A stretch of DNA of 64,000 nt from Nitratireductor soli (GTDB lineage Bacteria > Pseudomonadota > Alphaproteobacteria > Rhizobiales > Rhizobiaceae): contig NZ_LFVY01000012.1 in NCBI RefSeq assembly GCF_001050155.1, forward strand, positions 1 through 64,000, given 5' to 3'. Positions 1-2,145 of the stretch are shown here, piece by piece; within the stretch, counting starts at the first letter, position 1, and the number at the start of each line of letters is the position of its first letter. The notes under the pieces are model-generated. The model had not been told where the DNA came from and made no database searches. It was given only the letters and a program-made list of their open reading frames with translations. Made by a program: the position numbers and the translations under genes.

Positions 1-98
1 GGGCGCTTTGGTGCGCCGCCGGAACAGGCGTCCGCACGCCTCGATTAACCCCGCGTCAACCTTCTTTGCCGGCGCGCCGGGGCCGAGGTTCCACAGGC

Positions 99-127
99 TT
101 GACGATTGAACAAAAATAGAACATAAA
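99..127 (+). promoter_or_regulatory. SOS-type promoter with LexA box
   Basis: TTGACG at 99-104 and CATAAA at 122-127 are separated by 17 bases and form a plausible sigma-70 promoter. Inside the spacer, GAAC at 108-111 and GAAC at 119-122 are exactly 7 bases apart. GAAC-N7-GAAC is the reverse complement of the GTTC-N7-GTTC LexA box known in alphaproteobacteria. The box would block RNA polymerase until LexA is cleaved. It lies about 35 bases upstream of the small ORF at 156. Box and spacing are seen directly; SOS control is inferred. Confidence 0.7.
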
Positions 128-155
128 GGGAGCATAAAGAGATCAGGAGAGAGTT

Positions 156-242
156 ATGACCGAACTTGTCCAGGATGTCGCTTCCCTCGTCGCCGTCAGT
201 TCCTTCATTGTCGCCGCCGCCGCTTTCATCGGAGCGTTTTGA
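156..242 (+). CDS. 28-residue hydrophobic peptide, SOS-controlled, SidA-like candidate
   Basis: This tiny ORF begins at an ATG preceded by AGGAGAG with good spacing and ends at TGA. The peptide starts MTELVQDVASL. It then becomes a single hydrophobic stretch rich in Val, Ala, Phe and Ile, which is enough for one membrane span, and ends GAF. The promoter carries a LexA box between its -35 and -10. Caulobacter SidA, a 29-residue inner-membrane peptide, is SOS-induced and blocks division through the divisome. Size, membrane character and LexA control match that type, but sequence identity to SidA was not established. The function is therefore inference; the ORF, ribosome site and promoter are visible. 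Confidence 0.65.
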   Translation: MTELVQDVASLVAVSSFIVAAAAFIGAF

Positions 243-253
243 TCTCCGGATGG

Positions 254-278
254 AAAAGAGGCGGGATGCTCCCGCCTC
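254..278 (-). terminator. Rho-independent terminator of ggt
   Basis: A perfect 9-bp stem (258-266 with 270-278, GAGGCGGGA/TCCCGCCTC) has a 3-base loop. Read on the minus strand it is followed by TTTT (254-257). It lies 35 bases past the ggt stop. It could also stop the small plus-strand ORF ending at 242, although no T-run follows on that strand. Confidence 0.75.
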
Positions 279-312
279 CATAGCGTGCCCGCTCGGGCAT
301 TCGTTCTCATGG

Positions 313-2076
313 TCAGTCGCCGATGGCGATGCCCTCGCGGCGCGGATCGGCGCCGCCTTCCAGCCCGTCCGGCGTGATGGTGACCCCGTGCAGCCCCGAG
401 TTCAGCTCACCGACTGAGGTCTTGAAGCCCAGCGCGTCGAGATCGTCGGTCAGTTCTTCCGCCGCCGTTCCCGCCTCGATCGTGTAGGTGCCGAAACGGT
501 TGGTCAGATGCGGCAGGTCGATCGCCTGCTGCATGTTCATCTTCCAATCGACGAGCGCGATGATCGCGTTGGCCACATAGGGGATGATGTTGCTGCCGCC
601 CGGCGAACCCAATGCGTGGAGCGGTTTGCCGTCCTTCAGGATGATGGTCGGCGACATGGAGGAGCGTGGGCGCTTGCCCGCTTCGACCCGGTTGGCCACC
701 GCCTCGCCATTCTCCTCCGGCGCAAACGAGAAATCGGTGAGCTGGTTGTTGAGGATGAACCCGCCTGCCATCTGCCGCGAGCCGAAAGCGCTTTCGACCG
801 ACGTCGTCATGGAGGCGACGTTGCCGTCCTTGTCGACGATGACGAAATGCGAGGTGGAGGGCTGCGTCAGGCTGGTGCCGTCGATGCGCAGCTCCGCCTT
901 GTCCCAGGGCGGCATGCCGGCCTTGGCTTCGTCCTCCCCGAGCGCCGTCGGGCGGCGAATGAGCGCGGCGCGCTCCTTGAGATAGGCGGGATCGAGCAGG
1001 CCGCTCGGCATTTTGACGAAATCGCTGTCGGCCATGTAGCGGCCGCGGTCAGCGAAGGCGAGGCGGGTCGCATCGCCGATGATGCGCCAGCTTTCCGGAT
1101 CGTCCGGGCCGAGGCCCGCCAGGTCGAACTCGGCCGCCATGCCGAGAATCTGTCCGACGGTTAGCGCGCCCGAAGAGGGCGGTCCCATGCCGCAGACCTC
1201 GAGGCCGCGATACGGCGCGCAGACGGCCTCGCGCTCCTTGACCTCATAGGCGGCGAGGTCTTCGAGCGTCAGCAGGCCGGGATTGGTTTCATGCGCCTTG
1301 ACCGCGGCGACGATCTGTTCCGCCACCGCTCCCTTGTAGAAGCCGTCGGCGCCCTCGGCGGCAATCGTCTTCAGCGTCGCCGCATAATCCGGGTTCTTCA
1401 AAATGGTGCCGGTGGCCAGCGGCTCGCCGGCATCGTCGTAGAAATAGGCGCGCGCGGTTGCCTGCGTGTCGAGCTTGCCCTTGTCATCGGCCAAGAGCGC
1501 GTTGAGACGCGGCGAGACGGCAAAGCCCGATTCGGCCATGGCGATCGCCGGTTCGAGCGTCTCGGCCCAATCCAGCTTGCCTGCCTTCTGATGCACGGCC
1601 TCCATCAGCCGGACGACACCGGGCGTGCCGACCGAACGGCCGCCGACCACCGCGTCGAAGAAGGCGAAGGGCTCGCCCTTGTCATCGAGGAACAGGGCGG
1701 GTGTGGCGGCGGCGGGCGCCGTTTCGCGGCCGTCGAAGGTGGTGATCTTGCCGCTCGCTGCATCGTACCAGACGAGAAACGCCCCGCCGCCAATGCCCGA
1801 CGATTGCGGCTCGACCAGGCCGAGCACCGTTTGCACAGCGACCAGTGCGTCGGCGGCGCTGCCGCCCTGGCGCAGGATTTCGAGACCGGTCTCTGCGGCC
1901 AGCGGATTGGCCGCGGCGACCATCTGGTCCTTGGCCTGCACCGCCGCCTTGCTGGTGACGCCGCTGGCGATTTCCGGGGCGTGGGCGTCCGTCGCCTGCT
2001 GCGCCGTGCCGACGCCTCCCGACAGGAGCAAAATCGACAATAGTGCGACGGATTTCGTCGCGTGGGGAAAACGCAT
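313..2076 (-). CDS. ggt: gamma-glutamyltransferase (gamma-glutamyl transpeptidase)
   Basis: This is a 587-residue periplasmic enzyme that cleaves gamma-glutamyl bonds of glutathione and transfers the glutamyl group. The start at 2076 (MRFPHATK) is chosen because AGAGGAG sits 8 bases upstream, where the longer ORF has none. An N-terminal signal peptide runs to about residue 25. The proenzyme self-cleaves before a conserved Thr, visible as PSTSHFVIVDKDGNVASMTT around residue 400. The substrate-loop motif GSPGGSNI and the SSGIGGG block near residue 90 also fit the family, and the length is typical. The gene is followed by its own terminator and lies downstream of lipB on the same strand. Confidence 0.95.
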   Translation of the reverse strand: MRFPHATKSVALLSILLLSGGVGTAQQATDAHAPEIASGVTSKAAVQAKDQMVAAANPLAAETGLEILRQGGSAADALVAVQTVLGLVEPQSSGIGGGAFLVWYDAASGKITTFDGRETAPAAATPALFLDDKGEPFAFFDAVVGGRSVGTPGVVRLMEAVHQKAGKLDWAETLEPAIAMAESGFAVSPRLNALLADDKGKLDTQATARAYFYDDAGEPLATGTILKNPDYAATLKTIAAEGADGFYKGAVAEQIVAAVKAHETNPGLLTLEDLAAYEVKEREAVCAPYRGLEVCGMGPPSSGALTVGQILGMAAEFDLAGLGPDDPESWRIIGDATRLAFADRGRYMADSDFVKMPSGLLDPAYLKERAALIRRPTALGEDEAKAGMPPWDKAELRIDGTSLTQPSTSHFVIVDKDGNVASMTTSVESAFGSRQMAGGFILNNQLTDFSFAPEENGEAVANRVEAGKRPRSSMSPTIILKDGKPLHALGSPGGSNIIPYVANAIIALVDWKMNMQQAIDLPHLTNRFGTYTIEAGTAAEELTDDLDALGFKTSVGELNSGLHGVTITPDGLEGGADPRREGIAIGD

Positions 2077-2145
2077 GCCTGGCACTCCTCTGCTGGGCAT
2101 GGAGCGTGCGGCGCGCGCTCCAATTCTGCGATAGGGCTGGTACCG

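Follow-up and report, generated by a model that had tools for sequence, protein, structure and literature searches.

A conserved membrane-peptide gene behind a LexA-type box

The first few hundred nucleotides of the analysed stretch of Nitratireductor soli DNA (64,000 nucleotides, referred to as the window) contain a gene for a 28-residue peptide with one predicted membrane helix, preceded by a LexA-type box that lies within a promoter-like region. We are nearly certain that a real peptide is under LexA-type control at this locus, and consider it fairly probable, by analogy, that the peptide is repressed by LexA and inhibits septal wall synthesis in the manner of SidA of Caulobacter. Protein-level selection on the ORF, conservation of the LexA-type box and the hydrophobic, single-helix character of the peptide are directly supported, and in many genomes no gene of the same orientation follows the peptide unit. 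The first-pass annotation had proposed a SidA-like SOS division inhibitor; its interpretation is partly supported, and the finding itself is real and extends further than it assumed.

All elements read by the first-pass annotation at positions 99–242, i.e. a TTGACG-N17-CATAAA promoter with GAAC-N7-GAAC inside it, a ribosome-binding site and a short ORF, were found (Table 1). The start of the window coincides with the end of the contig. A strict sigma-70 scan of window positions 1–400 called no promoter and did not pick CATAAA; in relatives, visual inspection again shows TTGAC at the -35 place. The distance from the end of the box to the ATG of the peptide gene is 33 nt. The hairpin behind the peptide gene is absent among the terminator-like sites of the terminator/promoter scan; followed by TTTT on the minus strand, it is a candidate terminator for ggt, and perhaps for both genes. 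Downstream of the peptide gene, ggt and lipB are both encoded on the opposite strand, and since ggt is convergent, there is no second gene directly after the peptide that the window promoter could transcribe. Neither an unconserved ORF nor a promoter serving another gene was thus encountered: the ORF is kept in relatives, and the next gene is convergent.

Table 1. Features of the peptide locus in the window, and positions of homologues without a LexA-type box in other loci
Feature	Position	Strand	Remarks
-35 hexamer TTGACG	99..104	+	read from sequence
LexA-type box GAACAAAAATAGAAC	108..122	+	perfect GAAC-N7-GAAC, between the promoter hexamers
-10-like hexamer CATAAA	122..127	+	17-nt spacer from TTGACG
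Degenerate third half-site GAGC	130..133	+	one 11-nt period past the LexA-type box
Ribosome-binding site AGGAGAG	145..151	+	
28-codon gene MTELVQDVASLVAVSSFIVAAAAFIGAF	156..242	+	ATG at 156, TGA at 240–242; one predicted membrane helix
9-bp GC-rich hairpin	258..278		between peptide gene and convergent ggt; read from sequence
Gamma-glutamyltransferase gene ggt	313..2100	-	convergent neighbour, outside the peptide system
Box-less homologues	L319:3938; L320:3738; L321:3338; L324:3292(-); L328–L333:5001		

Conservation and protein-level selection

All ten genomes of the genus, among them that of the window, encode the peptide, and the best match among named relatives is Nitratireductor pacificus (93% of the peptide). 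Within the family, a single-sequence query retrieved it from 104 of 297 genomes and profile A1 from 166 of 297 (75 of 109 genera); within the order, profile A1 matched 35 of 297 genomes, and profile A3 115 of 295 (51 of 122 genera). These per-genome tallies were made at E ≤0.1, so that the weakest family and order matches are partly due to chance; together with the complete occurrence in the genus they bear out the claim of a real conserved gene. At class level, profile A3 matched 19 of 337 genomes, one of them the window's own. Among 15 of the other 18 loci, which were examined, a box was present in two (L193 and L194, the latter belonging to the order) and missing from 12, and one lay at a contig edge. 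Searches with 44 members of A3 gave no credible match in Pfam (best E=0.05), in NCBIfam (E=0.01, an antenna peptide) or in PHROGs (best E=0.0052, to phrog_1692 of unknown function).

The codons of the peptide show purifying selection. The pN/pS ratio was 0.26 among 17 close sequences (124 pairs) and 0.53 among 101 sequences (4151 pairs with pS under 0.75), compared with 0.87 (136 stop-free pairs) and 2.06 (2556 pairs), respectively, in a shifted-frame control, and second codon positions were the least variable ones. Among 90 distinct 28-mers, Asp7 is kept in 88 and Phe17 in 89; S/A10, L/F11, S/G15, A22 and A27 are also strongly kept. The best 19-residue segment of the window peptide has a mean hydropathy of 2.27, and the corresponding value is at least 1.6 in 127 of 131 members, predicting a single membrane helix. 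The mean Lys/Arg content over 131 members is about 0.40 in residues 1–8 and 0.09 thereafter. At 100 degrees, the conservation pattern does not single out one side of the helix clearly (1609 of 10000 shuffles were as strong) and so does not support a single binding face.

These properties bear on the possibility that the peptide is toxin-like and resembles TisB: under LexA control, it would depolarise the membrane and slow metabolism or make persisters instead of acting on the divisome. Other LexA-controlled hydrophobic peptides, such as TisB, are not known to act on division, and the hallmarks of TisB-type toxins are a cationic amphipathic helix and control by antisense RNA. The size, the hydrophobicity and the LexA box of the family would fit such a toxin, but the nearly invariant Asp7 and Phe17 and the small residues at positions 10, 15 and 22 suggest a specific partner, the few Lys and Arg residues are unlike those of cationic pore formers, and the leader, comprising a short predicted 5' UTR with a fold z-score of -0.27, has no evident structure. 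We regard a toxin of this kind as unlikely.

Statistics of the LexA-type box

The box alone is weak evidence, because the window genome (5.1 Mb) contains 176 perfect boxes, as compared to 114 sites for the pattern read backwards. The association of boxes with the peptide was therefore assessed from all small ORFs in 302 loci, which comprised 157 distinct matching peptides at a score of at least 15, one of them at a contig edge. A perfect box is located within 75 nt upstream of 125 of the remaining 156 peptides, and a one-mismatch box precedes another 13; in the same loci, a box precedes 110 of 7058 other ATG ORFs of 24–60 aa, some of which share promoters with peptide members. Since the loci were found by the peptide or by other proteins and never by the box (eight loci retrieved through a box search were excluded from the box statistics), the count is not biased towards boxes. 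The order of box, promoter and peptide noted in the first-pass annotation is thus a conserved arrangement. The 18 matches with neither type of box include prophage copies, chance-like matches, and some with degenerate promoters. The most common spacing between box and ATG is the 33 nt seen in the window (22 of 125 members), and a third half-site with at least three of four matches to GAAC at the 11-nt offset occurs in 57 of the 125 members with a perfect box. This degenerate half-site, one period on, may enable LexA binding in two registers.

Boxes were also counted batch by batch. Perfect boxes were present in 33 of a batch of 39 named loci, in 32 of 40 fetched family matches, mostly weak ones (within 120 nt), and in 30 of 40 fetched order matches. 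Order loci from profile A1 matches outside the family (19 of 22 examined, one at a contig edge) contained a box in eight of nine cases of short frames and in one of nine frames of at least 175 codons. The eight long-frame matches without a box were treated as chance; the box-bearing one, L075, is probably a true member, because it neighbours dnaE and occupies the same place as L185. Small ORFs and boxes are both common, which would be in line with a chance ORF behind a real or a chance box; however, conservation across relatives, codon selection and the box statistics contradict such a coincidence and show that the peptide is not a chance ORF, leaving this explanation a negligible probability.

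Five other boxes of the window genome, chosen among 100 listed, were inspected. One lies in the gap between ssb and uvrA, in which two LexA-type boxes (L313:1190 and L313:1877) are present, another box precedes the gene of a ligase-associated DNA-damage helicase, and the LexA-type box GAACAAAATCGGAAC (L311:1226) is located just before a DNA cytosine methyltransferase gene. The surroundings of two further boxes (L312 and L315) did not reveal a clear target.

Gene neighbourhood

The usual locus has the order lolC-lolD-peptide-dnaE. In a survey of 131 members with scores of at least 25, lolD was found co-directional and at most 1.6 kb upstream in 80; 48 had no lolD upstream, ten of those with only about 0.5 kb of upstream sequence, and three loci were too short. 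The nearest downstream marker is dnaE in 47 members and a convergent gene in 51, including the window, namely ggt in 34 and lipB in 17; in the others it is a reversed lolD (one member), or no marker was seen (15), or the locus was too short (17). In the window genome, dnaE is located on a contig other than that of the peptide. Two rearranged loci were observed: at L093:3001–3084 the peptide unit alone, its box containing one mismatch, is inverted with respect to lolD, and at L107:3001–3084 the peptide gene and lipB are inverted together.

The neighbourhood in Sinorhizobium meliloti (CP090106.1) comprises the genes of proline--tRNA ligase, a lipoprotein-releasing permease and an ABC ATP-binding protein, followed by a 469-nt gap and dnaE. 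The gap (L326:3769–4237), for which the gene table of that collection, known to be incomplete, lists no gene, contains the peptide ORF MADFVRDLAAFASMSLFIVSISVIALGL and two overlapping boxes. The record is labelled pSymB; its size of 3.7 Mb and the presence of proS, lolC, lolD and dnaE make it look like a chromosome. According to PMC10117765, S. meliloti translates an sORF25 located in the 5'-UTR of dnaE1, which, judging from its described position, may be the same ORF as the family peptide. Apart from this possible case, no description of the peptide for Hyphomicrobiales was recognised among the literature matches listed, which mostly did not cover subscription journals. The suggestion of the first-pass annotation that the peptide may be undescribed is therefore sustained as far as Pfam and NCBIfam are concerned, which hold no credible match, but is qualified by the potential identity with sORF25.

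For such sORFs, sORF25 included, the authors of PMC10117765 suggest roles as uORFs, and the frequent position in front of dnaE, also in S. meliloti, would suit an ORF that adjusts dnaE expression during the SOS response, as a leader peptide or uORF. However, the box and the peptide are kept in the 51 members with convergent ggt or lipB behind them, indicating that the peptide is not just a dnaE leader, and likewise in the window genome with its dnaE on another contig; the unit is moreover inverted relative to lolD in L093 and L107, and selection acts at the protein level. A leader function is very improbable. The frequency of a co-directional lolD upstream could instead point to a peptide that is controlled by LexA and regulates some other membrane complex, such as the adjacent LolCD lipoprotein exporter. 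This reading, which we consider improbable, conflicts with the separate promoter of the peptide gene with its LexA-type box, with the two inversions against lolD, and with the prophage homologues described below, which have no lolD among the neighbours seen.

Homologues in phages and prophages

Several homologues without a box are located in phage-like surroundings (Table 1). An exonuclease VIII gene is found by the peptide gene in L319 and L320, accompanied by RecT in L319, and a gene for a RecE-like exonuclease is present in L321; in L320, a phage-type repressor is encoded upstream of the peptide. The phage-like character of L324, where a neighbour belongs to a PHROG of unknown function, is less supported. 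Six viral contigs (L328–L333) encode the same type of peptide. Each also carries an exonuclease VIII gene that begins 0.7 to 1.3 kb downstream of the peptide gene, and in L328, L329 and L333 a RecT match follows. Because L328 and L319 are identical DNA, and L330 and L331 as well as L332 and L333 share their peptide DNA, the number of independent cases is about four. No perfect box lies in the 150 nt upstream of any of the six viral copies, which would fit expression from a phage early promoter.

A mobile-element origin of the chromosomal gene was considered and rejected. A search of viral contigs with A1 gave 65 pattern matches, none of which was confirmed, a prophage copy used as query against phages gave no match, and the plasmid matches were all to chromosome-sized records, save one Rhizobium plasmid at E=4.

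The locus beyond the order

The class sample contained 132 genomes with a dnaE match, among them the window's own and one of the order. From 49 genomes outside the order, made up of the 30 best and a further 19, 48 usable dnaE upstream regions were obtained. A forward box precedes dnaE in 12 of these and is missing from 36, while the reverse box occurs in three and the reversed-letter pattern in one of the same 48 regions. A small membrane-type ORF starts 10–60 nt past the forward box in all 12; among these loci there are two pairs whose members belong to the same family. One such ORF, MTNFLKDFLALSSVVGVLWAVTVWSAIVGSALT (L253), scores 14 bits against profile A3. Given such low similarity, common descent beyond the order rests on position, on the box and, mostly, on a D near the N-terminus. 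The dnaE-containing record of Methylobacterium bullatum has no box upstream of dnaE.

Caulobacter itself was not found in the genome sample, in which MipZ served as one query (identities of at most 52% and 49%) and dnaE, at order level, as another (4 genomes). Locus numbers provide a link: sidA is CCNA_02004 (PMC11034885, available part) and the dnaE gene of Caulobacter is CC1926 (PMC1839093, available part), while recN is both CC1983 and CCNA_02062, and CCNA_02005 codes for a nucleoside hydrolase. With recN as anchor of the two numbering systems, sidA and dnaE would be at most one or two genes apart, i.e. at the locus found here. Homology of the peptide family to SidA is, on balance, an even proposition. 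We put the same weight for as against the broader proposal that SidA represents one branch of an ancient alphaproteobacterial lolD-dnaE microprotein family under LexA, which would include the missing SOS division inhibitor of Hyphomicrobiales and would have been captured by temperate phages as a Kil-like early gene without LexA box.

Proposed function

If the peptide is a division inhibitor of the SidA type, LexA bound between the -35 and -10 hexamers would block RNA polymerase in the undamaged cell. Upon DNA damage, RecA would trigger the cleavage of LexA, and a short mRNA with a strong ribosome-binding site would be made at once. The 28-residue peptide is predicted to insert into the inner membrane as one helix, with the conserved Asp7 near its cytoplasmic end. 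By comparison with SidA and YneA, it might then bind the divisome at one of its membrane-embedded components, for which FtsW of the FtsW/FtsI/FtsN complex is the likeliest candidate, and the septal wall complex thus bound would stay inactive until repair is done.

With a conserved peptide that has a LexA-type box and matches neither Pfam nor NCBIfam, the proposed role could be put to a direct test in symbionts and elsewhere in the order. The family moreover offers a natural alignment of 28–32-residue helices, from which one could map how the septal wall machinery is silenced by one helix; the phage copies suggest that phages use the same trick.

Comparison with known systems

The closest parallel is SidA of Caulobacter, described in the available part of PMC4211646 as a LexA-controlled inner-membrane inhibitor of 29 residues which interacts with FtsW and FtsN. 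It resembles the family in length (29 versus 28 residues), in being a small inner-membrane protein (a predicted property in our case), in its GTTC/GAAC-N7 LexA box and, judging from locus numbers, in a position apparently next or nearly next to dnaE, which follows the peptide gene in 47 of 131 members, albeit not in the window genome. Function and FtsW interaction of SidA are, however, experimental findings, whereas the family is likened to it by description and not by the SidA sequence. DidA, the second inhibitor of Caulobacter, is likewise a damage-induced small membrane protein and blocks division through FtsN, but it comprises 71 residues and is SOS-independent, being activated by DriD (PMC4211646, same part). 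The helix of YneA binds TM7 of FtsW, where low-confidence AlphaFold 3 models also place SidA (available part of PMC13396833).

YneA, SosA, ChiZ, DivS and SulA resemble the proposed role of the peptide as SOS-induced division inhibitors; they differ in being larger, YneA requires a LysM domain, and SulA targets FtsZ. None of these proteins is known to be related in sequence to the peptide family. TisB of E. coli, a 29-residue SOS membrane peptide, shares the character of a small SOS-type membrane peptide, but acts on the membrane potential and is paired with an antisense RNA. KilR of the Rac prophage and Kil of lambda are small division inhibitors encoded in prophage early operons beside recombination genes. 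They act on FtsZ and in this respect differ from the mode of action proposed here, but in position they are matched by the box-less homologues, which likewise sit upstream of exonuclease VIII and RecT genes.
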